Source: Athripsodes cinereus (taxonomy: Eukaryota; Arthropoda; Insecta; Trichoptera; Leptoceridae). From it: 64,000 bases of DNA. Below the pieces are notes generated by a model, which saw only the letters and a program-made list of their open reading frames with translations, was not told the origin of the DNA and searched no databases. Location: assembly GCA_947579605.1 (NCBI GenBank), contig OX388317.1, positions 14,775,384 to 14,839,383 of the forward strand, in the 5' to 3' direction. Both the position numbers and the translations under genes were made by a program. Positions within the stretch are counted from its first letter, which is position 1, and every line of letters starts with the position of its first letter. Of the stretch, positions 17,722 through 59,407 are shown piece by piece.

Positions 17722-17764
17722 GCACGACCGGTTTCGCGGACTCCGAGTTCGCATCATCAGGTGC
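17722..17764 (-). ncRNA. Hammerhead ribozyme motif, mirrored copy
   Basis: The opposite arm of the palindrome encodes the same motif on the minus strand: stem I 17764-17761, core 17760-17754, predicted cleavage between 17726 and 17725. It matches the plus-strand unit base for base through the core. Confidence 0.85.
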
Positions 17765-17784
17765 TGATCTATAAGTATAGATCA

Positions 17785-17827
17785 GCACCTGATGATGCGA
17801 ACTCGGAGTCCGCGAAACCGGTCGTGC
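17785..17827 (+). ncRNA. Hammerhead ribozyme motif (small, short stem III)
   Basis: Order seen: stem I GCAC (17785-17788), core CUGAUGA (17789-17795), an extra U (17796), stem II hairpin 17797-17813 (GCG/CGC plus ACU/AGU with one A-C mismatch, loop CGG), GAA (17814-17816), stem III ACC/GGU (17817-17822, self-complementary with no loop), C (17823), then stem I GUGC (17824-17827). Predicted cleavage is between 17823 and 17824. All invariant core bases are present. A loop-less stem III cannot fold well in one molecule, so pairing between two RNAs is likely. Small dimer-acting hammerheads of this kind are known from Penelope-like elements. Confidence 0.85.
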
Positions 17828-18774
17828 GTTAGTCTTACTCAACAGTAACACGAAACAAAAATAATAAATATTTATTTTATTTTATTTGATAATATAAAAA
17901 AACTATTTATAGATTTCATAGTACTTTGCAAGAAGAAAATAATGATAATAATTCTGAATACTTTTTCTTTGGCGCAGTTTAACAGTTTTTAGACAGGTGA
18001 ATAGCCCAGTATTAAGTTTGCTTTTAAAACTTTCCATATGACTGGTCAGTCGACACTAGAACAAACCTTTTTTAAGGAATATCTTCACATTGTTTTTAAA
18101 AAAAATATATGATTAAGAAGTTTTTAATTTTATAATCCATGGGTTATTATTATTATTCAACCATTCATTAATTTGAAGCGGAATGAAGATGTTAAATTCA
18201 GTGTCATTGATGTTTGCCGCACATTTTCATATTGGATGATTCACAATACATACACAAAAGAGTGAGAAATCTATTCTACAGAATGAGTCATTAAAATACA
18301 TATTTAGTTACAAATCCCTAACGCATCTCATTTTGACATTTTGTGCTTTTCACGACTGAACGACACCGAAAGAAGTCTGTGTACAAGAAAATAATGATAC
18401 AGAACTTTTCATTTCATAGAGAAACATAATAACAACAATATTCTGTCTCTTTCTTCTACATGTAATTTTACTGTCTTTGTGTTATAAAAGAAGATTTCAG
18501 ATTTCCTTGTCACTTCTAATGTCATGTTTAGAATTAACTGAGGTGCTATGAACAATATTCTTGTTGAGGAATATAATAATGTGCTAAGATTAAATACACT
18601 ATTTATTATTAATAAACACTAGAAACGTTAAGTTATACTAACATACATACCTTGTGTGATATAAATATGGTAGATGTATGGAAAATTAATAGTTTTGTGA
18701 AAGAAATAACTACTTGTCGTTTAGCAATTATTATATTAATATATATGATTCTTTTTATCTTCGTTTTAAAAATC

Positions 18775-18905
18775 TCGTGAGTTGGAAGAGATAGCGTCTT
18801 TGCGATAAACTCGCTCTCTGCATATTGATTGTATCTAACTTGAATGTTTACCTTTTATGTAATTTTTTGTTACCAATGTACACCAAAGAATGAATAAATA
18901 AATAA
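18775..18905 (+). mobile_element. 3' end of a non-LTR retrotransposon (tail type D, copy 1)
   Basis: 'GTTGGAAGAGATAGCG', 'GCGATAAACTCGC', 'TTGATTGTAT', 'TTACCAATGTACAC' and a tail of AATAAATAAATAA type. The same order recurs at 23.70-23.85 and 32.66-32.80 kb, and in weaker form at 58.66-58.79 kb. Only the UTR remains. Confidence 0.7.
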
Positions 18906-18940
18906 GAATTAATTATCAAGATTATGTAATCTCCGTAATA

Positions 18941-19200
18941 CAGGAGAGACGATGGCCCTGGCTGGGACATGTTTTAAGAATGCCTAATGATAGTTAGCCA
19001 AAAAGAGCGCTGTTCTTCCGTCCGCAAGGGTTCCGTCGGCCCGGGCGTCCTTCTTTCACAATACACCGTTCCTATGACAACGACATCAGAGCGCAGGGAA
19101 TGTCGTGGAAAGAGGTGACGCAATTGTCGCAGAGACGCTCTGAATCGAGGAGGCTGGTTTCTGCCCTGTGCTCCCGAGAGGAGTGTTGAGGGCGATGGAT
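18941..19200 (+). pseudogene. C-terminal fragment of a non-LTR retrotransposon ORF2 (family E, copy 1)
   Basis: Plus-strand translation: 'LGHVLRMPND', a stop in place of Trp, 'PKRALFFRPQGFRRPGRPSF', 'YDNDIRAQGMSWKEVTQL' and 'RRLVSALCSREEC', then a stop. The layout 'W.GH..RMpnd..pk..l', 'GRP', 'W' is that of a LINE C-terminus. Three other copies (29.96, 56.8 and 62.4 kb) show the same sequence. The strand matters: the apparent open frame on the minus strand (18974-19216) is a shadow. Confidence 0.8.
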
Positions 19201-19985
19201 GGAATGGAATTATCAAGAACAGTTTAATTGAGGTATTAAATTAAAATTATTCAATTTAGTATAAACGTCCTACATAGAAGTGTAAAGCAATGTGGATTTT
19301 TTCTAACAAAGTAGGTTTTATTAAGTGTGCATTATTCTAAAATATTGAATACTTTATGTAAGTATGCAGTTTTCAAAATAATTTTATGTTTTGTTAAAGA
19401 TATTAATTGCTTCAATTTATTCTAGATGGTTGAAAGTTACAGTCTCAATTTATGTTTTGAATTTTTTACATTTTAATATTATACACATTATAAACGAACT
19501 TTTCAATAAGGATATTTCAAACCGAAAAAAAGGAAATTGCAAATTGTAGGAAATATTGTATCATTATAAGTACATATGTATGTACTATTTATATACATAT
19601 CAACAAGTGACCACAATTTACTTAATCGTGAGGAAGTTTGTAAGAGATTAAACTTAATAATAATAATATGACCAACTTTACATCCTAGGGGAGTAGGAAA
19701 AATATCCTTTCAAACGAGTTTTTATACTTTATACTGCAAACTTTTAAATTTATAATGAAGTTATAATATAAACCGCAACCTTTTGGGAATGGCTAATTTA
19801 TTCATCTGAACTCTAAAGTATCTAAATTGACAAAATGTTGTCCTAATTACAATTTGAAGCAATTTATACCGTACATAGTAATCAATTTGGGTGAATTTCT
19901 CAACAACAACAAAAAATATTGCTGCATTGTATAGTTGCGTGAATGTGTGTGTGTGATAAGTATGTAAATGTGACTGCGTTTGAAA
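19201..19985. other. AT-rich DNA, nothing recognised
   Basis: No coding frame, palindrome or shared repeat that I can support. Confidence 0.4.
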
Positions 19986-19989
19986 GGAT

Positions 19990-20080
19990 TGTTGTATTGC
20001 ATCGAACTATTTGTGTTTTTTTTTGTATATGTTTAATAACCTTGTGCCGTATATATTATTATAAATAAATAAATAAAAAG
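19990..20080 (+). mobile_element. LINE 3' tail fragment (tail type H, weak)
   Basis: 'CCTTGTGCCGTATATATT' followed by an AATAAATAAATAA tail resembles the tail at 10.3 kb. Short and AT-rich, so the family assignment is tentative. Confidence 0.4.
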
Positions 20081-20531
20081 TACATTTATTACAAAGTTGA
20101 ACCTACATAGCTACCTTCGTATTACATTTGTAAATATATACGGAAAAAATGATTGAGTTTCACATATTAATATTATTAAAACTTTGTAAAGTAAAAAGTA
20201 AACAGAAGAGAGAAACGGGGATAGTAAAATTGTGTCTTATAAAATAATTGTGTATAAGGTCAATTTTTTTGACTATTTTAGATTTTAAAAAAAAGAGGAT
20301 CCTGATTTGTATCGTAACTGGTTTTCTAAAAAATAGCGATCATTTTTTCAAATGTTTTTTTTAAACCTTGTCATTCACAATTTTTTTTTGAATTTTAGTC
20401 CTATTATAAAATTAACAAAAATCGTAAAAGAAGATACATTCACGGATGCTTATTTAATAGTCTTGTAAAAAAAAGAACAATAAGTACAAAATATAACTTA
20501 TTTTAGCATTATTCGATACAATCAGGAAAAA

Positions 20532-20731
20532 NNNNNNNNNNNNNNNNNNNNNNNNNNNNNNNNNNNNNNNNNNNNNNNNNNNNNNNNNNNNNNNNNNNNN
20601 NNNNNNNNNNNNNNNNNNNNNNNNNNNNNNNNNNNNNNNNNNNNNNNNNNNNNNNNNNNNNNNNNNNNNNNNNNNNNNNNNNNNNNNNNNNNNNNNNNNN
20701 NNNNNNNNNNNNNNNNNNNNNNNNNNNNNNN
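20532..20731. other. Assembly gap (200 N)
   Basis: A run of exactly 200 undetermined bases. Any protein frame drawn through it is meaningless. It lies immediately upstream of a hammerhead unit, so part of a retroelement may be missing here. Confidence 1.
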
Positions 20732-20732
20732 A

Positions 20733-20828: not shown

Positions 20829-20834
20829 ATTTCA

Positions 20835-20880
20835 GTTTCCCTGAAGATGCCTACAAGTATAGGCGAAAACGTTCGGTATT
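20835..20880 (+). ncRNA. Hammerhead ribozyme motif (single unit)
   Basis: Core CUGAAGA (20841-20847; position 7 is variable in hammerheads), extra U (20848), stem II GCCUA/UAGGC with loop CAAGUA (20849-20864), GAA (20865-20867), self-complementary stem III AAC/GUU (20868-20873), C (20874), predicted cleavage 20874/20875. Stem I is weak (two G-C pairs and then a U-U mismatch). The unit continues to about 20940 and is nearly identical to the plus arm at 59.36-59.47 kb. Confidence 0.75.
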
Positions 20881-21044
20881 CAACCTAACATAGTGGAGAT
20901 TAAACAGTGCTCAATAATATATTTTTATATTTTATTTATTAAAATTCAAAATAATTATCTTGTTGAATGCGCTCGTGATTGTATAATAATAATTATTAAA
21001 CTTAACAATGTTATTGAGTAACTCGTTTTTTAAATTTCTTTAGT

Positions 21045-21330: not shown

Positions 21331-21421
21331 TTTTTTGGTCTACTGTCATTCAATATCTTAATTAATCTCCTTTAATCGATTTTCGATGTTTTTGGCATTA
21401 ACTATGTGATAATTAAGCGAC

Positions 21422-21521
21422 ATGATTAGATAATGAGTTTTATTCACTATGTATTTAATTTATTACTTAATCATAAGTGATAATTTAAATACATAGTGAA
21501 TAAAACTCATTACCTAATCAT
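21422..21521. repeat. Inverted repeat, ~37-bp arms
   Basis: Left arm 21422-21458 and right arm 21484-21521 share 'AATGAGTTTTATTCACTATG' and its complement. The spacer is about 25 bp and itself AT-rich. There is no GAAA or CUGANGA core, so it is not one of the hammerhead units. It may be a small foldback element. Confidence 0.8.
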
Positions 21522-21539
21522 CTCCTTTAATCTATCTAA

Positions 21540-23690: not shown

Positions 23691-23694
23691 TAAT

Positions 23695-24833: not shown

Positions 24834-25041
24834 TTTTTTTAATTGGCTTGAATAACTATGTATTTCGTTACATAATTTTAAAACACGCTGTCGCGATTTC
24901 GATGCATCTACACCATTAACGGGCTGTTAAAATCTTTGAAGTCTTAAACAGCTCGTCAATGGTGTTGGTGCACAGGAATCGCGATTGCATGTTTTAAATT
25001 CAAGTAACAAAATACATAGTTATTCAAAAGCCAATAAAAAA
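24834..25041. mobile_element. Foldback/MITE-like element with ~95-bp inverted arms
   Basis: Left arm 24834-24931 and right arm 24943-25041 are imperfect inverted copies (for example 'GGCTTGAATAACTATGTATT' and its complement, plus 'AATCGCGAT' versus 'TCGCGATT'). The loop is only about 11 bp. There is no coding sequence and no hammerhead core. The arms carry many substitutions, so this is an old insertion or one under weak constraint. Confidence 0.8.
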
Positions 25042-25925
25042 TGTCTAGAAACTATTACATAGTTTGTACCTCTCAGATAAATGAAATATAATAAATTGAC
25101 TTATTAACCACTTATTGAATATTTTTGATCCATCTTGAGTAGTTATGAACGCTAATAATCACACTAAATGCTTTAGTAGAATTTCTACGATTTCAAATAA
25201 ACTATTTTATTTTCTAATTTAAAGATAAGTTATGAAATTGAAGATTTAAAGAAACTTTCTATTTTTTGTACCAACGTGTTTTTGTTAAAATTTATATTTG
25301 ACAAACGAATTATATAAATGAGTCAATTTTGTGGGTTAATGTAAACTTTCTGCATGGTTTGTCCCTTCAGGTATGTTCTTCCGTGATTTAAATTCTCATT
25401 TATTTAATTTTCAGATTGTGTTCTCTTGGGATGAACCATAACACTAAATTAAATCACTTTCATCTATTCTATTTCGAATTCAGATGTTTATTTAGTATTT
25501 GTACCAGTTCGAATGTTAGTGAGGAGATAGCGTTGATTTACGTTTGCTCCGGCAGAACCTTCCATAAAGGCGAGATAAGGAAAGAAAGATGTCTCATACA
25601 TAACGTGTGGAAACACCTTTATATTACACAGGAATTTTATAGGTACTGCTCTATACCTATCTATATACAGACGCTAAACACTTCAAAATTACTCAAGTAC
25701 GATCAATGTTGTGCGGAAACCAATACAGAAGAAACAGTTTGCAGGTTTAATTATAATAATAATAAATTACATATAAATATGTTTTAAATACTATAATGAT
25801 GATTAATTAAGTTATAAAATATAGGTGATAACATAAAGTAAAATCATGTAACTACATATATACTCTAAAGATAATCAGTTTTTACAGTTTTCCTCTAACA
25901 ACTGATTTTCATAAGTGCTCTATCT
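25042..25925. other. AT-rich DNA, nothing recognised
   Basis: The 123-codon frame at 25416-25787 (Tyr/Cys/Asn-rich) matches no family I know. It lacks a promoter or splice context that I can support and is treated as chance. Confidence 0.3.
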
Positions 25926-25926
25926 T

Positions 25927-26078
25927 AAGGTAAATTGAAACTAGTTTTTCATGATTGATCAAGAGAGAGATGTCTTTCAATTGAGATTGATAATGACCCG
26001 ATGAGTCGAAAGACGTCTCTCTCGTGATCAATAATTTGTAGTAGAAAGAAACACTTGTTTCAATTTACCTTACTATGG
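25927..26078. repeat. Imperfect palindrome containing a hammerhead unit
   Basis: Outer arms 'TTAAGGTAAATTGAAAC' (25925-25941) and 'GTTTCAATTTACCTTA' (26057-26072) pair. Inside, 'ATTGATCAAGAGAGAGATGT' mirrors 'ACGTCTCTCTCGTGATCAAT'. The right half carries the complete hammerhead; the left half retains stem III and stem I sequence but has lost the core. Confidence 0.8.
25983..26023 (+). ncRNA. Hammerhead-like motif with U3-A8 core variant
   Basis: Stem I GAGA (25983-25986), core UUGAUAA (25987-25993), extra U (25994), stem II GAC/GUC with loop CCGAUGA (25995-26007), GAA (26008-26010), self-complementary stem III AGAC/GUCU (26011-26018), C (26019), stem I UCUC (26020-26023). Predicted cleavage is 26019/26020. 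Against consensus, C3 is U and G8 is A. Positions 3 and 8 pair in the folded ribozyme, so the change is compensatory on paper. Activity is uncertain because G8 takes part in catalysis. Confidence 0.6.
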
Positions 26079-26339
26079 AATTCTACTATGTTTGTCCGAC
26101 ACAAATAAATGCTCATCTTTACTATCACGGTAAATTCCATGAGTGAGGTAGCAAACTGACTTACTGCAATTATTGAATATACAGGTCGTATCAAAACAAA
26201 TAAAACATTCAGAGTTAACGGCATAGCTCATTACCAAACGTTTTTTGTTAATATATTAACAGTTTGTTATAACAAATTAGGAGTAATAGCTGAAAAAGGT
26301 AGTATTCACTGTGGTGGTGTTTAGAATTTCATAACGAAA

Positions 26340-28370: not shown

Positions 28371-29599
28371 TATATGTGCACGTAATAACTAAGTTTCATT
28401 TTCATCATACGTAATCTTGATTATTTCCACTTTGAACAAAACTGTATTAAAATGTTTTTGTTGTGCAACTAACTATTTTATTGCTATTTACTTATTTTTG
28501 TGCATTTTGTAGAGTAGGTACTCTTAAATTACCAACTTGGCTCAAATTACTCAGTTTTTGGGAAGACAGCCTTATTTACAAAAAAAAATATACGTTATCT
28601 CGAAATAACTATTTTCAAATTAACGTGACGTTTTTACAATATTGTCGTTTTACCCTTCCCTATACAAACGATGCTAGATGCTAACATTAAATTAAATACT
28701 GGATTAATACAAGTGTAAGCTTATAAGTTCTTGACACAAAGCTGAATTATTACTGTATGTACATATTATTATATTTTATACCTAAGGTAAGTATTTGCTC
28801 TTCAATGAGATTATTTTGAATACATCGATATGTGTCTGTACTTATTTTATTACTGCATACGTCCATTCGTATGACCGTCACGGCATTTCCTTGAAGCTAT
28901 CGCAGTGCTTCTGATAACATGTAATAACATGTCGATTGCTCTCTTTATACCATAAAAAAACGAAACTTTGTACCATAAAAAATACGAAACTTGTGATAGA
29001 TACCATGTCTCGCCGCTTACAATATGATTTTAATGTGGAAAATCATATAAGCTATGTATTTTTGCATTAAAAAAAAACTTTTGTTTCGTGAATATTCACA
29101 TTTCCAGCGCTCTTTCTCTGGACAATACTCGTATACATATCGGTATTTCCTTAGTCTATCCGTTCTTGTTTATAATCTTTCTACATGCCCAAAATAAATA
29201 ATGCGCTACATAATTAACTTTATATTAAAATGATTCCAGTTTTCGGACATTTTTACCATACATATCTGAAAGAAAACTGAAGTTCTGATTTAAATATAGG
29301 CACATTCTTACTTAATTGTAACAAAATGAATTGTCTTAATAAAAATCATTACGGAAAACAAAGCATAGAGATTCTCGTACTAGACACTTACTTATACTAG
29401 TGAATAGATATCGTTTTCCAAAGAGTGGTCACTATAAGTTCAAGTGAATCATAGTTTCAGTAACTCGGACGAATCTGTTTCAGCAAGTTTTCATGCTATT
29501 CAGACAATCGCTATCATGAAAACTACTGCATAGAACATTTGAGTGTTGCATACTGAGATATTGAGAACAATAGCATTTTAATTGCTGCTTCAAGAGAAT
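28371..29599. other. AT-rich DNA, nothing recognised
   Basis: Only short low-complexity frames. No shared repeat or palindrome above ~20 bp that I could find. Confidence 0.4.
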
Positions 29600-29758
29600 A
29601 AACACAACATTTAGTTATTCCACTATTGACTTTATTTATTTTTGCGAGCCGGCTTTCAAGTAAACTTTACTTTTGCCTGACGATGAGAGCGGAAGCTCTT
29701 GAAAGCCGGCTCGCAAAAATAAATAAAGTCAATAGTGGAATAACTAAATATTGTGTTT
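29600..29758. repeat. Inverted repeat with hammerhead unit; left arm truncated at stem II
   Basis: Left arm 29600-29660 and right arm 29697-29758 are near-perfect inverted copies ('GCGAGCCGGCTTTCAAG' against 'CTTGAAAGCCGGCTCGC', then 'AAATAAATAAAGTCAATAG'). The 36-bp spacer holds the core and 5' half of stem II for the right-hand unit only, so the left unit lacks its catalytic core. Confidence 0.9.
29671..29718 (+). ncRNA. Hammerhead ribozyme motif with strong stem I
   Basis: Stem I UUUUGC (29671-29676), core CUGACGA (29677-29683), extra U (29684), stem II GAGAGC/GCUCUU with GGAA loop (29685-29700), GAA (29701-29703), self-complementary stem III AGCC/GGCU (29704-29711), C (29712), stem I GCAAAA (29713-29718). 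All six stem I bases pair. Predicted cleavage is 29712/29713. The invariant core bases are intact. Among the units here this has the best-paired stems. Confidence 0.85.
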
Positions 29759-29959
29759 CGTTTTAAAAATTATTAATATGAACTTCCACCAAGAACCGTC
29801 GGTCGATAAATTAAACTTTAATAAACACAACGTTAATATAAACATTGCAAAAATGCATTGATATTTGCTTCGGAAGTTCAATTAATTAAATCACTTTCTT
29901 TAAAGTTTCCTTTATGGATATAATAATAAAAAAACTTATTTTAAGTGTTTTTTTTTGTA

Positions 29960-30190
29960 GAGCAAGTCATGTTCTGAGAATGCCCAATGATAGATGGCCA
30001 AAAAGAGCGCTGTTTTTCCATCCGCAAGGGTTCCGTCAGCCCGGGCGTCCCTCTTTCATAATACACCGTTCCAATGACAACGACATCAGAGCGTAGGCAA
30101 TGTCATGGGAAGAGGTGACGCGATTGGCACAGAGACGCTCTGAATGGATGAGGCTGGTCTCTGTCCTGTGCTCCCGAGAGGAGCGTTGAG
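29960..30190 (+). pseudogene. C-terminal fragment of a non-LTR retrotransposon ORF2 (family E, copy 2)
   Basis: 'SHVLRMPNDRWPKRALFFHP', 'GFRQPGRPSF', then a frame broken at 'IRA' by a stop (GCGTAG) where the relatives read 'IRAQG', then 'MSWEEVTRLAQRRSEWMRLV' and a final stop. The Trp lost in copy 1 is kept here. Same 3' end ('GAGAGGAGCGTTGAG') as the other copies. Confidence 0.8.
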
Positions 30191-30744: not shown

Positions 30745-30977
30745 CAATCAGAAACATCGATTGGAGAACCACGTCTACACAATGCAACATTGTGTAGAAT
30801 CTAATCGGAAGAAGTTAGAAAGGTGTCCCAACGCTTACGAATTGGCTCAAGGCTGGCTTAAGTGATCACTTTCGGTGTCCATGGACAGCGTTCACCAATT
30901 TTTCTCACTTCTTCCGATTAGATTCTACACAATGTTGCATTGTGTAGACATGGTTCTCCAATCGAGGTTTCTGATTG
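30745..30977. mobile_element. Foldback element with 71-bp inverted arms
   Basis: Arms 30745-30815 and 30907-30977 are inverted copies with few mismatches. Each also contains an internal palindrome, 'CTACACAATG' with 'CATTGTGTAG'. The 91-bp spacer is GC-richer and holds 'GTCCATGGAC' and 'AGTGATCACT', both self-complementary. On the minus strand the second follows GAAA, as in the hammerhead units, but no CUGANGA core precedes it. Confidence 0.85.
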
Positions 30978-32800: not shown

Positions 32801-33214
32801 AATAGGTCAAAGAGTAGGTACCTGATCAATGAGGATCAAGAGAGATGTAGGCCAGTGTTTTTATGTTTTTAGTTAAGAGTTGTGAATGTTCAATTGTTCA
32901 TGTTTATATTCTTCTTCTTTATTTAACTTTTGTAATATTTTAATTGTTAGTCCCAATACAGGCGCACTGTACTTTGTGGGCCAACATTTGCAACACATGT
33001 GAATTCTGCCTAATAATAAATGAAAAGTGTTTTATAAATAAAGAAATTTAAAAATGAAAATTTAGGATCATTTGGTTTTGGATGTTAAGGCTTTTTAGCC
33101 ACAACTAAGTAGAGTTCTGATTTTGTTTTCACTAAATGAGTAAAACTCCATTTTTAAAATTAAAAATTTTTTATTAGTAAAAAATACTTAAGAGTTTTAA
33201 ATTTCTTTATTTAT

Positions 33215-33255
33215 CAGTTACACGTGTTTCGGGTTGCAAGCCCATATTCATACAT
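33215..33255 (-). ncRNA. Hammerhead-like motif, mirrored copy (A3-U8)
   Basis: The minus-strand twin in the left arm: core 33251-33245, predicted cleavage 33219/33218. Stem I keeps two pairs before a mismatch because the loop sequence differs between the arms. Confidence 0.55.
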
Positions 33256-33257: not shown

Positions 33258-33298
33258 TAGTATGAATATGGGCTTGCAACCCGAAACACGTGTAACTG
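33258..33298 (+). ncRNA. Hammerhead-like motif with A3-U8 core variant
   Basis: Stem I UAGU (33258-33261), core AUGAAUA (33262-33268), extra U (33269), stem II GGG/CCC with small inner pair (33270-33282), GAA (33283-33285), self-complementary stem III ACAC/GUGU (33286-33293), A (33294), stem I ACUG (33295-33298, last pair U-G). Predicted cleavage is 33294/33295. C3 is A and G8 is U relative to consensus: a compensatory exchange of the 3-8 pair. Confidence 0.6.
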
Positions 33299-33339
33299 AT
33301 AAATAAAGAAATTTAAAACTCTTAAGTATTTTTTACTTA

Positions 33340-34130
33340 TAAAATTTTTTTAAGTAGAGTTCTGCCCTTTCGTTTTGATATTTCAGTAAATTTGTGATCT
33401 ATGTAATTAAAAACTGTTCAGAAATATTGGTTGTAAACCGAGTTCTTTTTTCAGGAAAGTCCTGGAAATAAATTACATAAAAACTTTCATTCTCTTATTA
33501 AAATTACTCGGAAGACACGTTTACTAAATTTCACACTGTGATAATAATTTTACTAATTAGGTAGGTATGTAGTTTTCATGTTACAAGTAGGTAAGTAAGT
33601 AGTTTTATCCACCTTGGTATAATGATCATTTATACCTACATATAGTGTGGGTGTAGACATTGTACACCAAGAACACCGATTTTATATTATATTTTAAACT
33701 AATAGCTGCATATTATGTATAATTTTATATTAATAATAATACTCGTATTATAATACCTTAGTGATCCCGTATTCGGGTGCAATTGTTGGAAACGTTTTAT
33801 TGCATGAATATCTTACCATGAGTTTTGTTTTATATGTAGAAACTATCTACTACGCTTACATACTACATGATTGCGCTAATGGTTTTCTATCTCTTTCTGT
33901 ATTAACATTCATATAATATACCTACTTACACTGCAGCCATGTGGTGCATATTATTTTCAGAATATAAATAAACTAAGTATTGCGAATAGGTATACCACTA
34001 TTATGGAAGGCTACGTTTTTGATTCAGCAGTATAAAGTAGACCCAGACAACTTATAAAAACATAGAAGAAGCTTTTGTTCAAGATTTGTTTGAATTGGAT
34101 AAAACATCCGTATCCGTATCCAATCCATCA
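33340..34130. other. AT-rich DNA, nothing recognised
   Basis: No feature that I can support. Confidence 0.4.
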
Positions 34131-34553: not shown

Positions 34554-34557
34554 ATAT
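34554..34557. repeat. Target-site duplication, left (ATAT)
   Basis: ATAT directly precedes the LTR start TGTGATGA and matches ATAT at 43253-43256 directly after the other LTR. Low complexity in AT-rich DNA, but the positions are exact. Confidence 0.7.
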
Positions 34558-37140
34558 TGTGATGATCCTACCTATTTTAAACCATTCTAAGCTCCGAATT
34601 TGCAACATCCTAGCTTCTAAACTATACCTACTGTAATAATTGATTCCCAAACTAGAAGTGACAACCCTATTCAGCTAGCTAAGAATTGTATGAATTTTCG
34701 CATTGTTGCAAATATACGTACGAAATATCGCATTCCTAATTGAATTAATTAACGAATTTTGGCCTTTCGTGATCGTCTCGATTTATCTATTAACTATTTT
34801 CATAGATTTGGACCCAGTACGTTGTGTTTTGACGATAATTTTACCTACGTTGTGTATTTTTAAAAACGCAAAATAAGTCACCTGAAATATACATTTCAAT
34901 AATCAAAAAGAACAACAAAATCACAAAATCAATAAAACAATTTAAACATGAATTTTGATACATATTAACTCTGAGGTCAACTTTGACGTCAGATCACTTA
35001 CCTTGAGATACTGTAAAATAACATAATAAAAATAGTGCATAATAAAACATAACGAAATATAACATAACAATCATCATAACATAAAATTCAAATAATATTA
35101 TTCTATATCATTACGAGAATGTTGTATGGTAACTGGTTGCCGATCTATGTCCCTACATAAGATAACCATTTCATAGTTTCTATAGCCGATGTATGTACAT
35201 ATGTTCTACAACATACCTACTAATTCGTTGCGTCGTAAAGGACAGTGGCGCACCCAAAAACATAACTTTATTACTTTTGAATATTAATTAAATTTCAACA
35301 CAATTGCTATGACATCATTTTCAGAGACTAACTACCATGTTAGTGCATGGAAAGCATGCTGTGTCCATGCTAAAGGAGCGCCGCCTCCGCTCCCTCACGT
35401 CTCAAACTGTCCCATGCCGCATTTTGAGCCCGAGTGCACAACTCTACTCGCGAATATATATAAAATAATATATATTATATAACCTCATTAGAACATGCAA
35501 TATTTTTGCTATATACCCTCATTAGAACATGCCATTATGCAACAAAAACATATAATAATATTAGTCCTAAAGATTCCTGATCATTGAGCTTCAGCCAAAG
35601 GGTGCAGATAACCCCTTCAAGCTATACTCTAGCAGAAATTCGAGGAATGGAGCTGTACCTGCTTCAGTCGGAGAACATTTGAAATAAATACCTTTTCATT
35701 GGTTAAGTTGATTTATACGCAGAGAAAGCACCACCAATCTCTACGCACATCCAACTATGTTAATGATTGCAAGGTGTGTTCTTACAGAACTGATAAGATA
35801 GACTACTAATATAGTTAGCAATATCACGAACAGTGATTTACCAACCAGTTATTAATAAATTAAAGTTTATTAAACATAATATCCATTTACAAATGCCCAA
35901 AGACCTTATAATGGATTGTGGGTCCTCCAGCATATAGGGAAAAGGAGAGAGTTTTGTTAGTTGAACTACTTATTTTTACAAAATTTGATTTAAATAATTA
36001 TCATGCATAATTATATACTACAATATCATATATTTTGTTAAGAAAGGAATAACGTCGTACCCAAATCGTCTGGGGCCTAACAAACGACTGGACAAAACTA
36101 CATTCCCTAGAAGGAAAAGGGTTTATGTAGGGATTTTTGGATAAATGGTATTAATATAAACATATTAATATAATAATACATAAACAATACGATATAACCA
36201 TGCCTTGCAAAAATGTTAATTAATACATTATAGAATGTCACAGCAATATAAGTAGAAAAATCCAGTAAGTTTATAGAAGACAAATGACATCGATGATAAA
36301 ATATGTAATTAAATAAATAAATAATATCCTGCTCTACATAAAACTCCTCTCCAAACTGCTTAATCCTTCGTAATGGTACAATAAATTAAATAAAAATATA
36401 ATATTAGCTAGATCTGTGCGCCACTGCTATCGGTCTGGTTCTAGGTGTGTCGTACCCCGCTATATTATATCAGTCACAGGTACATACATACATACAAAAA
36501 TGCTGAAAATAAATATACATACCTAATTCCTTTGTTTTCAAAATCTGTAAAATAATAAATCCTTGAGTACGACGACTACTTTGTAGACAACAATATCCTC
36601 CTAAATATCACGACACCTAGATTTGAATAAATTAATAATATTGAAAAATCTTATCTTATGACAGCTGGCAGGCTCACGGATTTTAAAATGTTAATTAAAA
36701 GTAATTTAGGATGATCTATATATATTCCCAAATGTGGAAATATCACTAAAATATAATGTACTAACTACTATCGAAGGTGGGTAAATAAATATTAAAATAT
36801 GTCGAATTCAAACACTGAGATTAATATGATTGAGTCCCACCTCTCCTAGGTTCAAAACTAAACTGCCCCGAGTCATCTATCCTACCTCTTCAGATCCTGA
36901 AAAATGCCCTAGCAACACACAAAAAAACAACTTCCATCTCTTTATGACACACACCAAAATATACCTGTCTCTGTCTCCTACATAGCTAGTTGTGTTCGAC
37001 AACCACTTGAGATCAAACTAAGTCTCATCCCTTTATTAATCACCTACTACAAACATTCGATCTAGGTATATGAAAATAATAATATTAAATTTACAATCTA
37101 AAATAATATTTACAACCTTGTATATATTCATTTCATCACA
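34558..37140 (-). mobile_element. 3' LTR (2583 bp) of an LTR retrotransposon in minus orientation
   Basis: Direct repeat of 40674-43252. On the plus strand it starts TGTGATGATCC and ends TTTCATCACA, so its ends are short inverted repeats with TG...CA, as in LTRs. The only difference I noticed from the other copy is a 4-bp indel near 36521, which points to very recent insertion. No coding frame lies within it. An LTR of 2.6 kb is unusually long for an insect element. Confidence 0.95.
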
Positions 37141-40655: not shown

Positions 40656-40673
40656 CTGGTCCAAGGCACCATT
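40656..40673 (-). promoter_or_regulatory. Primer binding site candidate
   Basis: On the minus strand, two bases after the LTR end (CATCACA), comes 'TGGTGCCTTGGACCAG'. PBSs start with TGG because tRNAs end in CCA. I have not assigned the tRNA. Confidence 0.7.
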
Positions 40674-43252
40674 TGTGATGATCCTACCTATTTTAAACCA
40701 TTCTAAGCTCCGAATTTGCAACATCCTAGCTTCTAAACTATACCTACTGTAATAATTGATTCCCAAACTAGAAGTGACAACCCTATTCAGCTAGCTAAGA
40801 ATTGTATGAATTTTCGCATTGTTGCAAATATACGTACGAAATATCGCATTCCTAATTGAATTAATTAACGAATTTTGGCCTTTCGTGATCGTCTCGATTT
40901 ATCTATTAACTATTTTCATAGATTTGGACCCAGTACGTTGTGTTTTGACGATAATTTTACCTACGTTGTGTATTTTTAAAAACGCAAAATAAGTCACCTG
41001 AAATATACATTTCAATAATCAAAAAGAACAACAAAATCACAAAATCAATAAAACAATTTAAACATGAATTTTGATACATATTAACTCTGAGGTCAACTTT
41101 GACGTCAGATCACTTACCTTGAGATACTGTAAAATAACATAATAAAAATAGTGCATAATAAAACATAACGAAATATAACATAACAATCATCATAACATAA
41201 AATTCAAATAATATTATTCTATATCATTACGAGAATGTTGTATGGTAACTGGTTGCCGATCTATGTCCCTACATAAGATAACCATTTCATAGTTTCTATA
41301 GCCGATGTATGTACATATGTTCTACAACATACCTACTAATTCGTTGCGTCGTAAAGGACAGTGGCGCACCCAAAAACATAACTTTATTACTTTTGAATAT
41401 TAATTAAATTTCAACACAATTGCTATGACATCATTTTCAGAGACTAACTACCATGTTAGTGCATGGAAAGCATGCTGTGTCCATGCTAAAGGAGCGCCGC
41501 CTCCGCTCCCTCACGTCTCAAACTGTCCCATGCCGCATTTTGAGCCCGAGTGCACAACTCTACTCGCGAATATATATAAAATAATATATATTATATAACC
41601 TCATTAGAACATGCAATATTTTTGCTATATACCCTCATTAGAACATGCCATTATGCAACAAAAACATATAATAATATTAGTCCTAAAGATTCCTGATCAT
41701 TGAGCTTCAGCCAAAGGGTGCAGATAACCCCTTCAAGCTATACTCTAGCAGAAATTCGAGGAATGGAGCTGTACCTGCTTCAGTCGGAGAACATTTGAAA
41801 TAAATACCTTTTCATTGGTTAAGTTGATTTATACGCAGAGAAAGCACCACCAATCTCTACGCACATCCAACTATGTTAATGATTGCAAGGTGTGTTCTTA
41901 CAGAACTGATAAGATAGACTACTAATATAGTTAGCAATATCACGAACAGTGATTTACCAACCAGTTATTAATAAATTAAAGTTTATTAAACATAATATCC
42001 ATTTACAAATGCCCAAAGACCTTATAATGGATTGTGGGTCCTCCAGCATATAGGGAAAAGGAGAGAGTTTTGTTAGTTGAACTACTTATTTTTACAAAAT
42101 TTGATTTAAATAATTATCATGCATAATTATATACTACAATATCATATATTTTGTTAAGAAAGGAATAACGTCGTACCCAAATCGTCTGGGGCCTAACAAA
42201 CGACTGGACAAAACTACATTCCCTAGAAGGAAAAGGGTTTATGTAGGGATTTTTGGATAAATGGTATTAATATAAACATATTAATATAATAATACATAAA
42301 CAATACGATATAACCATGCCTTGCAAAAATGTTAATTAATACATTATAGAATGTCACAGCAATATAAGTAGAAAAATCCAGTAAGTTTATAGAAGACAAA
42401 TGACATCGATGATAAAATATGTAATTAAATAAATAAATAATATCCTGCTCTACATAAAACTCCTCTCCAAACTGCTTAATCCTTCGTAATGGTACAATAA
42501 ATTAAATAAAAATATAATATTAGCTAGATCTGTGCGCCACTGCTATCGGTCTGGTTCTAGGTGTGTCGTACCCCGCTATATTATATCAGTCACAGGTACA
42601 TACATACATACAAAAATGCTGAAAATAAATATACATAATTCCTTTGTTTTCAAAATCTGTAAAATAATAAATCCTTGAGTACGACGACTACTTTGTAGAC
42701 AACAATATCCTCCTAAATATCACGACACCTAGATTTGAATAAATTAATAATATTGAAAAATCTTATCTTATGACAGCTGGCAGGCTCACGGATTTTAAAA
42801 TGTTAATTAAAAGTAATTTAGGATGATCTATATATATTCCCAAATGTGGAAATATCACTAAAATATAATGTACTAACTACTATCGAAGGTGGGTAAATAA
42901 ATATTAAAATATGTCGAATTCAAACACTGAGATTAATATGATTGAGTCCCACCTCTCCTAGGTTCAAAACTAAACTGCCCCGAGTCATCTATCCTACCTC
43001 TTCAGATCCTGAAAAATGCCCTAGCAACACACAAAAAAACAACTTCCATCTCTTTATGACACACACCAAAATATACCTGTCTCTGTCTCCTACATAGCTA
43101 GTTGTGTTCGACAACCACTTGAGATCAAACTAAGTCTCATCCCTTTATTAATCACCTACTACAAACATTCGATCTAGGTATATGAAAATAATAATATTAA
43201 ATTTACAATCTAAAATAATATTTACAACCTTGTATATATTCATTTCATCACA
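40674..43252 (-). mobile_element. 5' LTR (2579 bp) of the same element
   Basis: Second copy of the repeat at 34558-37140, offset by 6116 bp over most of its length and 4 bp shorter. In minus orientation it is the 5' LTR and would hold the promoter. It is followed on the right by the ATAT target duplication. Confidence 0.95.
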
Positions 43253-45080: not shown

Positions 45081-46630
45081 CGAGAATCAATTTCAAACTA
45101 AGATTACTGATGTTTTATATTAATTGTGAAATTTTAACGGTATTCAATTAAATCGTCGGAATAGGTATGTTGATAAGGTACTCCAAATATCAAGATAAAT
45201 TTCACTGATTTTACAGAAAAATACTACGTACTATGTATAAACTATAGGTACGTACCTAGTAACTTAAACATTTGAACAATATAATAAAATTTTCAGAAAA
45301 ACGTAGATATAAATAAAAAGCGAAGGTATACACAACAAATTTCTTTTGGAAAAAATATAATTCATAATTCATATGTTCACATCATATAAATAATTAATAT
45401 TGGTAGTTAATCTTTTGCACAAAATATATAATCTTTTCTTATGTATCATGGTTATGATATTGTCGCAGGAAATATTTTTTGTGTCGTCTATTAGTCTTTG
45501 ACTTCAGGAAATTTGTTTTTACGATGATATTTTTCCTTGTTGAGTAAATAATATATATTTTTGTTAATGATTAGTTTTTTAGCTATTTACGAAAAATAAT
45601 AAACGCGAATATGAGTTTTTGTATTACTTAAAGGTGATTGAATTTACAACACTATAATTTCACACATGTTGACATGAACATTCAATGGTGGAGCTTCTGG
45701 CAGGCGATAATAAACCAACCTCTGATTACAAAGTCGCTCCATTATCACTGAATTGTTTGTACTGAAAAACACATACAGGGCTGAAAATTGACATGTTTTA
45801 AACTGTTAGACATTCAACATGAATCTTTTGATTTTTATGAAAATATTGAAAGCAGACGAGGCACTAAATAATACGGTTTTGTATTATTTGTATTTAAACC
45901 TAAAAAATAATAAGACTTGAAATGCTAAGAAAATCCAAGCTCGTTGCAGACCAATCCAGTCAGTATAACTTACTAAAATTAATATATAAAATATTGGTAT
46001 AAATTTAATTTTGATTCCTAAAAAGCATAGAAAGAATGTTCTCTGCGATAAAATGATATAAGAGAATGAAAGATATACCTAAGAAAATGACGATAAAACT
46101 TGCAAAGTGAGAAAATAATGATGAACACAAAAAAATACAAGATATAAGCAATGTTATTTACTCGTACATGCATGAAACATGTTGTTGAGGCTATAGTAAA
46201 TATTATAAGTTTTAATTTCGTGTTTTCAAGATAACCTGCCTAAATGTGGTTAGCAATATTGCTAAGTCTTACTGTATGGTACAGTAATCATTCGTGTTTT
46301 CGTAAATTCATACAATTTGTTGGCGGTTCTATCTTAGTTTGATTCATATTTCTGTAAATTTTCAAATGAACCACAATGTAATTAATTAATGCGAGTAGAT
46401 ATTATAATATATGTGAGATAAAATATGCGGGATGTAGGTAAGTATTTCACATGAATATTACTTTTCCATCTATACCTATACAATATGATCTTAAAATTTA
46501 TATATCAAACTAGTATTATATTATGAAATTTAAAATTAAAGAATAAATAATTTTCATGGTTGGCTCAACAGAATGTTTTCAAACTTTTTTCGAATGATAT
46601 TTTTTTCTCCTTGGGCACGAAACATTCCAG
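45081..46630. other. AT-rich DNA, nothing recognised
   Basis: No coding frame of note, no shared repeat, no long palindrome. Confidence 0.4.
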
Positions 46631-46831
46631 AGGCCTGAGTCAACAACACACTATCGCGTCACGTTCCCGCTCCGCTAGCGTTCGGGTGCAGACGATGGTG
46701 CGCCAAAGTGTTAATTTTCGTAACTATTGTGTATCTTAGCAACGAAATTGACACTTGCTTGCAACATCGTCTGCACCCGAACGCTAACGGAGCGGGAACG
46801 TGAGACAAAAGTGTGTTGTTGACTCAGGCCT
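46631..46831. mobile_element. TIR element (MITE family B), copy 2, with long GC-rich arms
   Basis: Ends 'AGGCCTGAGTCAACAACACA' (46631) and 'GTGTTGTTGACTCAGGCCT' (to 46831) pair. The arms run on for over 60 bp through 'ACGTTCCCGCTCCG' and 'CGTTCGGGTGCAGACGATG' and their complements. The ~60-bp centre 'AACTATTGTGTATCTTAGCA' recurs, inverted, at 63.25-63.31 kb. The GC-rich arms stand out from the AT-rich surroundings. Confidence 0.85.
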
Positions 46832-47034
46832 CAGTTCTGCATATCTCGTCTCACTACTTCACGCCATTTGCTCTTTGGCCTCCATTTCCGAATGATAATT
46901 TGTAGTCGTAGTTCATAATATTATATTAAAGATATTAACACTTACATACCTACATATTATTATATGAATAAAATATTCTTAGAATTCAAAGTATGAATTC
47001 TGTTACTTTTAATTTTTTTTTTTTATTGATTTCA

Positions 47035-49715: not shown

Positions 49716-49719
49716 GGAT

Positions 49720-51885: not shown

Positions 51886-52286
51886 GATATGAAACAATGA
51901 GATCAAATGATGAACTTATATAGTATAGACTGTACATATGTACCTACTGCAAATGGTTTGTTCCGCCGAGTGTTTCTGTTTTTATTAAATACAAGGGTAG
52001 TTTGTCGTTCTCATCCGGAGTTGAAAAGCTTTAGTACTTAGTACGACCTTTGATAATTTAATATTATTATGTCCATTGTAATTTTAAATACTAGGTAAGT
52101 AATGTTTTATTGTGTTCTGCAGTAAATTATGATTGGAATATTTTTTGTTCACTTATTTTGTATCCATTGTATAATTATTTTTTTTAAGAAAATAATTAAA
52201 TTTTACTATTAATTTATATTAAAAGAAACTTTGTATTTTCCACTAGAACAATTTCAATTATAGTCAAAACGTTTTATATCAAACTA

Positions 52287-52334
52287 TTTGTTCAAACTAC
52301 TTTTCGGAACTACTTGTTCCATCATCAGTAACAA
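52287..52334 (-). ncRNA. Hammerhead ribozyme motif (single unit)
   Basis: Minus strand: stem I UUGUU then A (52334-52329), core CUGAUGA (52328-52322), extra U (52321), stem II GGAAC/GUUCC with loop AAGUA (52320-52306), GAA (52305-52303), a two-pair stem III AA/UU with loop GUAG (52302-52295), U (52294), then G and AACAA (52293-52288). Predicted cleavage is 52294/52293. Invariant bases are intact. An A-G mismatch sits at the base of stem I. Unlike the others, stem III has a loop. Confidence 0.7.
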
Positions 52335-56625: not shown

Positions 56626-56629
56626 ATTA

Positions 56630-56777: not shown

Positions 56778-57048
56778 TATCATCATCATCATCATCATCA
56801 TCGCCCTCAACGCTCCTCTTGGGAGCACAGGGCGGAAACCAGCCTCCTCCATTCAGAGCGTCTCTGTGCCAATTGCGTCACCTCTTCCCACGACATTCCT
56901 TGCGCTCTGATATCGTTGTCATAGGAACGGTGTATTGTGAAAGAGGGACGCCCGGGCCTACGGAACCCCTGCGGACGGAAGAACAGTGCTCTTTTTGGCC
57001 AACTATCATTGGGCATTCTCAAAACATGTCCCAGCCAGGACCATCGTT
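56778..57048 (-). pseudogene. C-terminal fragment of a non-LTR retrotransposon ORF2 with (TGA)n tail (family E, copy 3)
   Basis: Minus strand: 'LGHVLRMPNDSWPKRALFF', 'PQGFRRPGRPSF', 'YDNDIRAQGMSWEEVTQLAQ', 'RRSEWRRLVSALCSQEER', stop, then (GAT)n at 56801-56778. This is the least damaged of the four copies. The (GAT)n run directly after the gene is a plausible 3' terminal repeat of this family. A plus-strand frame across it (56603-57115) is a shadow. Confidence 0.85.
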
Positions 57049-57594
57049 TATTTGGGATTATAATAAATACTATTTTTTTCCTTTATTGCACGAAGAAAAA
57101 TTGTGGCATAACTAACAGTCTGGAATTTTATTTGAATCAATATGATATATTATTATACCAATGTAAACCATATCACAAAGATTATACTTTAGAAGAAGGT
57201 TAAGTAATTATTTCTTAACAAGAATCTAAATAACCTTTGAACTTACATGTCAAAGACCCATCATCAAAAGCTTTCCGATTTTTGTTTTTTTTTGTTATTA
57301 TAAATATCCAAATATGGAATAAAATATTATCACTTTTAAACACTGTTGTAATATCATGCCTACCTACATTTTCCCCCCATTTTTCACAAAGCTATTTTTT
57401 TGTCCTGTTTAAACTTAATGTTATAGATGAAAGAATATTCCTGAAAATTCAATTTAAACGACTGACAACGCTATTATCTTGGCTCATTTTCATTATAAAG
57501 AAATAAATTTCTTATCAAATAATATATGATAGCATTATACTATTGTTGAGATAGGAAATTTACGGCGACGTGTATGGGAGATTTATAGCGACTC
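57049..57594. other. AT-rich DNA, nothing recognised
   Basis: No feature that I can support. Confidence 0.4.
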
Positions 57595-57604
57595 TAACTA
57601 CAAT

Positions 57605-57635
<31 letters not shown>

Positions 57636-57700
57636 TTAATACAATGGACGGCCATAATAGCCTTTGACAGAAAAAAAGAAAGATATAGAAAACATACATA
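57595..57700 (-). mobile_element. LINE 3' tail (tail type H) on the minus strand
   Basis: Minus strand: 'TCTGTCAAAGGCTATTATGG', 'CCGTCCATTGTATT', then an (AATA)n run of about 40 bp. Parallels 10.3 kb. Confidence 0.65.
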
Positions 57701-57874
57701 AAACTCAATACACTAACAATAACAATGTTTCCACCAATAAAATACTCAATATCTATGTGCATACAGTAATATCATAAAAATACATTGTGAATAGTAATAT
57801 AGTAAATGATACAAACAAAAATTCAACAAAATAATACATTTATGTAAAACCAATACCCCTACTACACCATTAGC

Positions 57875-58135
57875 ACCAATAGTACAATTACCACTACTAC
57901 ACCATTATAGCATATCCCACACGTGGGTTGCCAGCGGACAGCTGCGTGTAATAAACATGCAAGCTGTCTGCACTGTGGCAACAAAAAATTAAGACATTCA
58001 AGATGGTTGGCAAGCTTCATCGCTGAATTGAAGATGTCAAATGTCTTGATTTTCCACGAATTCTTTGTTACTTTTACAGGACACTGGAAAACTTTCAAAG
58101 TGAATGGGACATTATTTTTTGCCGGGACTTCACGG
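57875..58135 (-). repeat. Dispersed repeat family A, best-preserved copy (minus)
   Basis: Minus strand: 'GAAGTCCCGGCAAAAAATAA' head, 'CCAGTGTCCTGTAAAAGTAA', 'TTCAGCGATGAAGCTTGCCA', 'GTTGCCACAGTGCAGACAGC', 'CAGCTGTCCGCTGGCAACCC', 'ACGTGTGGGATATGC' and a (GTA)n-like tail. It contains both ends and serves as the reference copy. Confidence 0.85.
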
Positions 58136-58659
58136 AACAATGTACGTTTTAAAATAAAAGAAATATGTCAATTTACTTTTATAACACATTCCTAACCCCC
58201 AAGTGATCTTAATCTCATCATATTTGGTCTATCTTTTAAATTTTTCCTATCGGTACTCTTTTTTTAATATTTTATCTTTTTCAAACAATACAGGATTTTG
58301 TATGTTTATTTTTTTTATATCTTTTATTAATATTTTTTTTTTAACATTTTTTTTTCAAACATTACAAGTTTTTGTATGTGTTCTTCTTCTTTTCTTTCTT
58401 TTATTAATAGTTTTTATCTGTACTTATAATTAATACGTTTCAAACTATGTTTTTGTGTGTTAGTGACGGCTGCTTGTGCGATATGCAAGTGAGAACAGAT
58501 GAATGAGCGGAATTTACGATACTTAAATAATTGACTTAACTGTGGTACATGTTTGTGGATGACAGCTGAGTTATGAACGGCTTATTTTTATAAACCATAT
58601 TTATGGTTGTCTTCTGTTTTGTACTTTATACCATTAAATTACATTACATTCGTGGTTAG

Positions 58660-58790
58660 ATAGAAGAAATCACTATATAGTGATAATCTCGCCACTGCAC
58701 ATCATCACATTTTTTCTTGTGTATATCGCTTTGTTTTATTTGTTATATGAATGATGATAAATAAATAAAGAAATAAAATGAAAAATAAAT
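58660..58790 (+). mobile_element. LINE 3' tail (type D-like, diverged)
   Basis: 'GTGATAATCTCGCCACTGCA', 'TTGTGTATATCGCTTTG' and 'GATGATAAATAAATAAAG' follow the order of the type-D tails with many differences. Confidence 0.45.
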
Positions 58791-59313
58791 ATAATAGCAC
58801 TTACAATTATTTATATGGATACTTTTTTAATACTAATATTTGTGACTCAGCTATAAGTGTACGTAGTATATTTAGAAGGCTTCTCATGTATTACAAATCA
58901 GAAAATTCCTAGCGTGTATGACACAACATACGACATAATAATGAAGTTAATATGTATGAGTGTGAATTCACTGCTCGCTTGGCAGCTCCTGTCATATCTA
59001 TTATGATGTTGATATTTCAAGATAGTTACTTATGCTACCCATCATGAGAACTATGTATTCTACTATTATATTACATAACTAGTAACTACAAAACTGTTGA
59101 TACATCCAACACTACATACATGATACTCTTTATAATAGTTCGTACTATCTATAGTACCTACAAAGTATTTTCATTATAGGCATACTTGTGTAAGTTTTTT
59201 TTTAATGTCAAATGTATTACTTATGTCTATATATATATAAATATATAATTTTAATAAATAAAATATAAAAATATATTATTGAGCACTGTTTAATTTCCAC
59301 TATGTTAGGTTAA

Positions 59314-59356
59314 ATACCGAACGTTTTCGCCTATACTTGTAGGCATCTTCAGGGAA
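59314..59356 (-). ncRNA. Hammerhead ribozyme motif, mirrored copy
   Basis: Minus-strand twin in the left arm: core 59352-59346, predicted cleavage 59319/59318. Same bases as the plus unit through the core. Confidence 0.75.
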
Positions 59357-59364
59357 ACTTCAGT

Positions 59365-59407
59365 TTCCCTGAAGATGCCTACAAGTATAGGCGAAAACGT
59401 TCGGTAT
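59365..59407 (+). ncRNA. Hammerhead ribozyme motif
   Basis: Core CUGAAGA (59369-59375), extra U (59376), stem II GCCUA/UAGGC with loop CAAGUA (59377-59392), GAA (59393-59395), self-complementary stem III AAC/GUU (59396-59401), C (59402). Predicted cleavage is 59402/59403. Stem I has only CC/GG before a mismatch. Confidence 0.75.

Follow-up and report, generated by a model that had tools for sequence, protein, structure and literature searches.

Hammerhead-bearing insertions, probably 5′ leader copies of Penelope-like elements and often paired head to head, in the genome of the trichopteran Athripsodes cinereus

Minimal type I hammerhead ribozymes with a near-absent stem III are reportedly carried by Penelope-like elements (PLEs) in animal genomes and are thought to cleave as dimers, in work attributed to Cervera and de la Pena in 2014 and to Lunse, Weinberg and Breaker in 2017. 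The literature drawn on here in parts (PMC11167929, PMC3846280, PMC3088659, PMC7229834, PMC7761336, PMC6155905 and PMC10085705) includes papers in which the role of the hammerhead in PLEs and the origin of head-to-head copies are called open. According to the sections consulted on the PLE protein PAc, this protein cuts both strands of its target in vitro, extends each of them and begins reverse transcription internally; the two neighbouring start sites account for the tail and are the same on both strands (PMC11167929). Here we describe a stretch of 64,000 nucleotides (nt) of the genome of Athripsodes cinereus (contig OX388317.1, positions 14,775,384 to 14,839,383; referred to here as the window), in which hammerheads lie at seven loci. 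These loci are likely to be retrotransposed copies, about 95 to 160 nt long, of the 5′ leaders of the RNAs of several PLE families, primed on both target strands from sense RNA. The hammerhead architecture, the flanking repeats, the single tail, the inner ends at TCAG and an open reading frame (ORF) of reverse transcriptase (RT) and GIY-YIG type linked to one family are read directly from the sequence. Leader pairs of this kind would be a natural experiment, recording RT start sites, the ends of the copied RNA, the stagger of the cut and the joining of strands.

The loci belong to families named here F1 (17.8 kb), F2 (20.8 and 59.4 kb), F3 (26.0 kb), F4 (29.7 kb), F5 (33.3 kb) and F6 (52.3 kb, imperfect). 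A hammerhead architecture shared by all seven had been proposed in an initial annotation made from the letters of the window, and it is confirmed by strict and relaxed scans. A strict descriptor requiring CUGANGA, stems, GAA and H17 has seven matches in the window with scores of 11–18, falling at five of the seven loci (17.8 kb on both strands, 20.8 kb, 29.7 kb, 52.3 kb on the minus strand and 59.4 kb on both strands); 60 Markov-shuffled windows yield 1.07 matches per window, with a score of at least 11 in 6 of their 64 matches. Freeing core positions 3 and 8 gives 27 window matches (16 listed), now including 26.0 and 33.3 kb. Nine of the 27 have a fully palindromic stem III, against 0.29 per shuffled window, and all nine carry a Watson–Crick pair between positions 3 and 8 (six C–G, one U–A and two A–U). 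When up to two deviations are tolerated at any position and stem I has at least 3 bp, six matches are returned, of which the only two-deviation cores are those at 25987 (UUGAUAA) and 33262 (AUGAAUA), both deviating at C3 plus G8; a weak one-deviation match at 59048, with a score of 6, is on a par with shuffled sequence. The 20.8/59.4-kb family drops out of this last scan because its stem I is just 2 bp long.

Six loci show the whole minimal layout: a core followed by the extra U, stem II, GAAA, a palindromic stem III and stem I. The same order, with a very short stem III, had been annotated for all seven; at the 52.3-kb locus stems I and III are imperfect. The full core (C3 U4 G5 A6 N7 G8 A9, G12 A13 A14, A15.1–U16.1 and H17) is found at 17.8, 20.8, 29.7, 52.3 and 59.4 kb, so that the CUGANGA-type core ascribed to every locus holds for five; at 26.0 kb (UUGAUAA) and 33.3 kb (AUGAAUA) the core is complete but for C3 and G8, which are altered as a pair. 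The number of loci stands at seven, but the number of motifs is ten, the 17.8-, 33.3- and 59.4-kb loci each consisting of two facing ribozymes. All loci have, as annotated, one extra U between A9 and stem II, and the G that opens stem II completes an AUG with it. A covariance-model search had been proposed as a check, and its outcome goes against the annotation: no Rfam hammerhead model matches at E values up to 10, either in the whole window or in the 29.7- and 17.8-kb loci searched alone. Rfam may be without this stem-III-poor form of the hammerhead. Matches to microRNA and MAT2A models in the window searches were discounted as long hairpins.

The structure of the insertions was followed in their relatives in the genome (716 Mb in 160 contigs), from which 31 F5, 17 F2 and 20 F3 pairs of facing arms were examined; first-look candidates numbered 627, 902 and 1960, respectively. 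Only the best of these candidates were scored, which biases the sample to near-identical copies; copy numbers and pair fractions are accordingly those of the sample and not of the genome. For F5, the best 40 of 627 candidates gave 69 matches with 90 to 100% identity. The 30 first loci are 27 distinct places, with 22 pairs and five arms without a full partner, and eleven further listed places add nine pairs and two singles, making 31 pairs among 38 places (window copy included). All 31 pairs have a single arm that extends to the end of the tail (unit position 133–135). With the tail ATG at 104, the shorter arms end at 65–105, apart from that of L040, which ends at 120 inside the tail. Exact direct repeats of at least 12 bp abut the arm ends in 26 of the 31 pairs (12 bp in 16, 13 bp in five, 14 bp in three and 15 bp in two), whereas flanks taken from different loci share at most 11 bases (n = 462) and 10 bases (n = 72).

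For F2, the best 40 of 902 candidates gave 57 matches spread over 40 places, and 17 of these places appear in the list as pairs. The sample of 16 pairs outside the window, four of the 23 other places and the two window copies comprises 18 pairs and four single arms; one pair (L112) was excluded, as the fetched sequence ends within its arm. All 17 remaining pairs have one tail, and in 15 of them the flanking repeat measures 12 bp or more (control maximum of 12, reached once in 306). The short arms end at 92–119, 14 of 17 at 113–119, with the tail ATG at 118. Taken together, F5 and F2 have exactly one arm at the tail end in 48 of 48 pairs and a repeat of at least 12 bp at 41. Among the best 40 of 1960 candidates for F3 there are 61 matches, mostly of 89–95% identity, and F3 is older; its 30 loci hold 20 pairs, with one tail in 16, none in four and two in no case. 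Foldback or miniature inverted-repeat (MITE-like) DNA transposons, with inverted repeats that resemble hammerheads by chance, would share the long near-perfect inverted repeats and short flanking direct repeats. Such elements are hardly credible as the source here: their outer inverted-repeat ends would be identical, whereas in 48 of 48 F5 and F2 pairs the outer ends differ by the one tail; long relatives contain an RT/GIY-YIG-type ORF, and the full layout with palindromic stem III is absent from three 311-kb Markov sequences.

In the window, four of the five paired insertions (F1, F2, F4 and F5) have exact flanking repeats of 12–14 bp and F3 has a 9/10 match; two random stretches (126 and 130 bases) share a repeat of at least 12 bases in 6 of 400 trials. 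F1 is bounded by TATAAAAAAACT (17600–17611), a target-site duplication with an exact copy at 17893–17904. Within it, the long tail-bearing arm (17612–17773, RNA sense minus, tail from the ATG reading MKCYKVNADTINE) holds a C3–G8 hammerhead at 17722–17764 (minus; stem I GCAC/GUGC), and the short arm (17776–17892, plus) holds its mirror copy at 17785–17827 (plus). The F2 pair lies between copies of the low-complexity repeat TATATAAATATATA (59234–59247 and 59520–59533), with the short arm at 59246–59359 (minus; C3–G8 hammerhead at 59317–59354, minus) and the long arm with the tail at 59362–59519 (plus; mirror hammerhead at 59367–59404, plus). A second F2 hammerhead (20839–20876, plus; stem I of 2 bp) is in a single arm that extends upstream of TTCAG; upstream of this arm is a 200-N run (20532–20731), followed by C-rich letters of the kind also seen upstream of the hammerhead in L002.

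F3 begins with a possible decayed left repeat (25911–25920, 9/10 match to 26105–26114) and a short inverted arm containing only the 3′ part of the leader (25921–25975, minus), followed by the U3–A8 hammerhead with core UUGAUAA (25983–26023, plus) and the leader arm with the tail (25984–26104, plus; tail ATG reading MEFYYVCPTQ). In F4, flanked by AATAAACACAAC (29597–29608, exact copy at 29820–29831), the short inverted arm starts within stem II (29609–29660, minus), and the long arm with the tail (29661–29819, plus; ATG reading MNFHQEPSVDKLNF) has a C3–G8 hammerhead with a 6-bp stem I (29671–29718, plus) and no TCAG upstream of the core. Enclosed by TAAGTAGAGTTCTG (33106–33119, exact copy at 33351–33364) are the two arms of F5: the long one with the tail (33120–33253, minus; ATG reading MEFYSFSENK), in which stem I of the A3–U8 hammerhead (33217–33253, minus) is cut to 2 bp at the junction, and the short one (33259–33350, plus), starting at the AG of TCAG and accompanied by a hammerhead with core AUGAAUA (33258–33298, plus). 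The imperfect F6 hammerhead (52285–52334, minus; C3–G8) has, with stems assigned by eye, a stem III one base off a palindrome and an A–G mismatch in stem I; L003 holds a similar unit.

In F5 and F3, inner arm ends, counted for arms with an intact core (arms with a cut or altered core being left out), cluster at a TCAG motif. Among 56 F5 arms, 23 end at +1 (the A of TCAGT), 16 at +2, two at +3 and seven one or two bases upstream; among 33 F3 arms, 17 end at +1, the A of TCAGA (locus L073 alone contributes four), and five at +2. The A of TCAG lies three bases (F5 and F3) or seven bases (F2) upstream of the hammerhead core. The motif itself is one that we take to resemble the arthropod initiator. 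As the inner end of an arm is where synthesis of the complementary DNA (cDNA) stops, we read the TCAG cluster as the RNA start. On this plain reading the RNA 5′ end would be at TCAG, with the 5′ strand of stem I formed by its first three bases (AGU in F5 and AGA in F3) and the ribozyme made first. At the junctions in the centres of L019, L011 and L023, the last bases of one arm are often repeated (CATATTCATAC twice in L019, for example), which looks as if RT had re-copied the RNA 5′ end before joining. No paper describing hammerheads at PLE transcription starts, or palindromes of leaders, was found in the part of the literature searched.

At the other end of the leader, tails start at an ATG (MEFYS in F5, MDFHS in F2, MEFYY in F3, MKCYK in F1 and MNFHQ in F4), so that four of the five window tails read MxF(Y/H) and F1 reads MKCY. 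The F2 tails of the listed relatives begin MDFHSVNTKTLE; in the window copy the frame ends at codon 12 (MDFHSVNTKNS). These tail starts suggest that the tail ATG is the true ORF start, and in most pairs the short arm ends at or ahead of it. The AUG of the hammerhead, used as the ORF start in PAc, was rejected in this role for F1–F5, in which its frame stops after 3 to 27 codons.

Encoded between or beside the F5 arms of L013 and L080 is a PLE-type protein. In L080 it is a 672-residue frame with an RVT_1 match (1.3e-16) and a YVDD motif, and at its end stands the motif SG(I/V)Y..C..C...YIG.T.R, which 14 related C-termini, that of L013 among them, conserve. The Pfam GIY-YIG model (PF01541) matches 12 of these 14, the best at 2.9e-6; it has no match in the single F5 piece, though the conserved motif is shared, and a PDB profile search gave a match to I-TevI at an E value of 0.38 only. 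The frame is followed by a short 3′ untranslated region and by the same A3–U8 hammerhead, in agreement with the annotation's expectation of a GIY-YIG and RT ORF beside long relatives. When the genome was searched with the protein, 150 of the 2509 candidates were scored, with identities ranging from 35 to 100%; we read these as many PLE lineages. An RT domain is seen for F5 alone, in L080, and the arrangement of inverted or partial tandem pseudo-long-terminal repeats (pLTRs), a single tail and a target-site duplication is found in F5 and F2; by this measure the flanking repeats of F3 are weak, and F1 and F4 are seen in the window only. A Penelope origin of the hammerhead loci is supported, and for all families but F5 the link comes from shared anatomy: one tail, a repeat of about 12 bp, head-to-head arms and tails starting with ATG. 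The initial annotation had taken the loci for terminal repeats of several PLE lineages; the assignment to PLEs stands, by ORF for F5 and by anatomy for the others, and the terminal repeats look more like 5′ leaders placed on both target strands.

These features are probably best explained by the following series of steps. The copied RNA would begin at the A of the TCAG motif, sharply so in F5 and F3 and more loosely in F2, with the minimal type I hammerhead forming its 5′ end, and RT would start inside the leader, either near the likely ORF ATG or some 30–45 nt further on, giving the tail. The break in the target would be staggered by about 12 bp and primed at its two ends, once per strand, and both cDNAs would reach or approach the RNA 5′ end and be joined there, resulting in a head-to-head palindrome with central ribozymes and the tail on one side. 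Starting in the leader of an ordinary RNA, RT would copy the leader alone, and on both strands this would give a head-to-head leader pair; a full copy would need a read-through RNA from a tandem element, with an upstream ORF preceding the leader. Longer copies with upstream sequence occur at L080, L013, L024, L028, L034 and L043.

A different origin of head-to-head pairs, self-priming of an antisense PLE transcript to give a hairpin that is then inserted, was proposed for Adineta vaga and, in the part of that paper drawn on here, is the preferred reading of Arkhipova and co-workers, who do not exclude a sense template and ask for further tests (PMC3846280). Unequal arms could then be the loops of hairpins. 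In our families, however, the inner ends of F5 and F3 cluster at a sense-strand TCAG, unexpected for an antisense 3′ end, and complete fold-back would put the tail in both arms, whereas exactly one has it in 48 of 48 F5 and F2 pairs. Because the arms end at a sense-strand motif and the single tail is constant, we favour priming of sense RNA from both strands; antisense self-priming appears quite unlikely here.

Several observations weigh against priming of sense RNA from a TCAG start on both strands. Eight of the 56 F5 inner ends lie further upstream, and some F5 arms outside that count start deeper within the unit; the F2 ends are less sharp (6 of 39 at +1, 22 of 39 between −3 and +3 and 17 of 39 further upstream), and F4 has no TCAG beside its core. 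The RNA start is itself derived from insertion ends. The flanking repeats of F3 barely exceed the control (at least 8 bp in 6 of 20 against 19 of 380), pairing in F2 is limited (17 of 40 listed places have a listed partner, and three of the four other fetched places are single arms), and the insertion structures of F1 and F4 come from the window copies. The constant single tail is also not predicted by the PAc data, because both PAc strands share start sites; the one-tail rule could come from two dimerized RNAs or from a single RNA that serves one strand after the other.

The hammerheads of F3 and F5 differ from the canonical core in the 3–8 pair. C3 and G8, partners in the active fold, are jointly replaced by U3–A8 in F3 (UUGAUAA) and by A3–U8 in F5 (AUGAAUA). 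In 311 kb of fetched sequence, enriched for the F families, a scan for cores with up to two deviations anywhere and a palindromic stem III finds 104 distinct motifs, 38 without deviation and 66 altered at positions 3 and 8 together, with no deviation elsewhere (Markov control, 0 in three runs). The 3–8 pair is A–U in 47, C–G in 38 and U–A in 19, remaining paired in every motif; most motifs are F5 and F3 copies and so are not independent events. Across the genome, the C3–G8 pattern CTGANGATG-N16-CGAAA has 407+406 matches against 1+7 for its reversed pattern, and the U3–A8 pattern TTGANAATG-N16-CGAAA has 279+263 (542) against 16+14 (30), the genome-wide case for U3–A8 being this comparison with its own reversed pattern. 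With about 100 matches listed for each pattern, stem II has at least 4 bp in 22 of 47 distinct U3–A8 and 23 of 49 distinct C3–G8 sequences, against 6% of shuffled ones; matches with a shorter stem II may be decayed or may not be hammerheads. Some listed U3–A8 matches, such as TTGAGAATGCCC..., resemble by eye the non-long-terminal-repeat (non-LTR) repeat at 18.9 kb and not a hammerhead. Besides F3, two further sequence groups among the listed matches have U3–A8. By eye, L063, L070 and L078 form a variant group of F3 in which the base of stem II has changed from GAC/GUC to GUC/GAC, a compensatory exchange.

Natural hammerheads with U3–A8 in place of C3–G8 are already described in the part of Perreault 2011 seen here (PMC3088659), and the sections consulted on the PLE hammerhead of PAc report partial activity of a C3G/G8C double change (PMC11167929). 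For a natural A3–U8 core, no report was found in the part of the literature searched. It is possible, though doubtful, that the U3–A8 and A3–U8 cores are merely inactive ribozymes carried along. An inactive core could spread, as insertion of one PLE in vitro had no need of hammerhead activity (PMC11167929, in the part drawn on); in addition, stem II has at least 4 bp in just the 22 of 47 distinct listed U3–A8 matches. On the other side, all 66 deviating motifs (again mostly F5 and F3 copies, hence non-independent) change C3 and G8 jointly and remain paired, U3–A8 matches exceed reversed ones by 542 to 30, and near-identical F5 copies retain A3–U8. Families that multiplied with U3–A8 and A3–U8 cores would be a natural test of the C3–G8 pair.

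The diminished stem III is a palindrome of 6 or 8 nt in five of the six families, as in PLE-type minimal hammerheads. The sequences (ACCGGU in F1, AACGUU in F2, AGACGUCU in F3, AGCCGGCU in F4 and ACACGUGU in F5) are all distinct and each is its own reverse complement, in keeping with the annotation's statement that stem letters differ while pairing is largely kept; that of F6 is, by eye, one base short of a palindrome. Two-strand folding, proposed in the annotation as a check, has a mixed outcome: the double-hammerhead fold is the lowest-energy dimer in the energy model for F4 only, and none of the six units gains energy on dimerization beyond mononucleotide shuffles at the 5% level. Leader RNAs may cleave themselves, probably best as a dimer held by the palindromic stem III. 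More speculatively, and with a small chance of being correct, the palindrome may serve mainly to tie two leader RNAs, in the manner of a retroviral dimer site, and not mainly for cutting; a dimer of the PLE protein would prime both target strands at once, each strand having its own RNA and each RNA a single start site, and cleavage would then free the joined leaders. If this were true, such an RNA dimer would explain the constant one-tail asymmetry, the keeping of the palindrome while its letters change and the location of the ribozyme at the first bases of the RNA.

In two further sets of inverted repeats of the window the scans find no hammerhead. One is a palindrome at 46630–46832 whose two 88-nt arms are 88% complementary; an inverted copy related to it (83%) lies at 63234–63365. 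The other set, long inverted repeats at 24848–25027, 21412–21531 and 30745–30977, may be further insertions of foldback or palindromic type; direct repeats with one mismatch flank the one at 21.4 kb (16 bp) and the one at 30.8 kb (14 bp). Two 300-bp segments recur 6.1 kb apart with 99–100% identity (34557–34856 at 40673–40972, and 36511–36810 at 42623–42922), pointing to a recent tandem duplication of about 6.1 kb, in a stretch of strong GC skew at 36–42 kb. Long frames at 2041–4470 (plus) and 14423–15460 (minus) match RVT_1 (1.6e-30 and 1.3e-14) and appear by eye to be non-LTR-like and not PLE, and four related fragments (18936–19197, 29968–30190, 56799–57060 and 62417–62567; 88–91% alike) resemble the 3′ ends of a single non-LTR element.

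The minimal PLE hammerheads reportedly resemble the window units in their near-absent stem III, animal hosts and association with PLEs; the window units differ in being tied to an insertion structure, in the A3–U8 core of F5 and in RNA ends mapped to stem I. The following comparisons concern the parts of the cited sources drawn on here. The variants of Perreault 2011 share U3–A8 with F3 and the two other groups; A3–U8, as in F5, is not mentioned in the part consulted, in which core mutants in repeated elements are set aside (PMC3088659). Metazoan retrozymes are, like these copies, non-autonomous and hammerhead-bearing, but consist of tandem repeats (170–400 bp) with canonical type I hammerheads, whereas the copies here are leaders, single or head to head (PMC7229834). 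Poseidon PAc of Anolis resembles our families in an internal RT start at two sites, extension of both strands and a hammerhead near the start codon, with the C3G/G8C change partly active; the PAc ORF begins within the hammerhead, at stem II, whereas here the likely ORF ATG is downstream, in the tail (PMC11167929). The Penelope elements of Adineta vaga share inverted pLTRs, an optional single tail, target-site duplications and head-to-head palindromes, and their pLTR has an initiator-like motif, as do the window leaders (PMC3846280). The target-site duplications shown for them measure 8 to 10 bp, against about 12 bp here, and in Athripsodes cinereus dozens of ORF-less pairs have been checked and are read as the product of a different mechanism.

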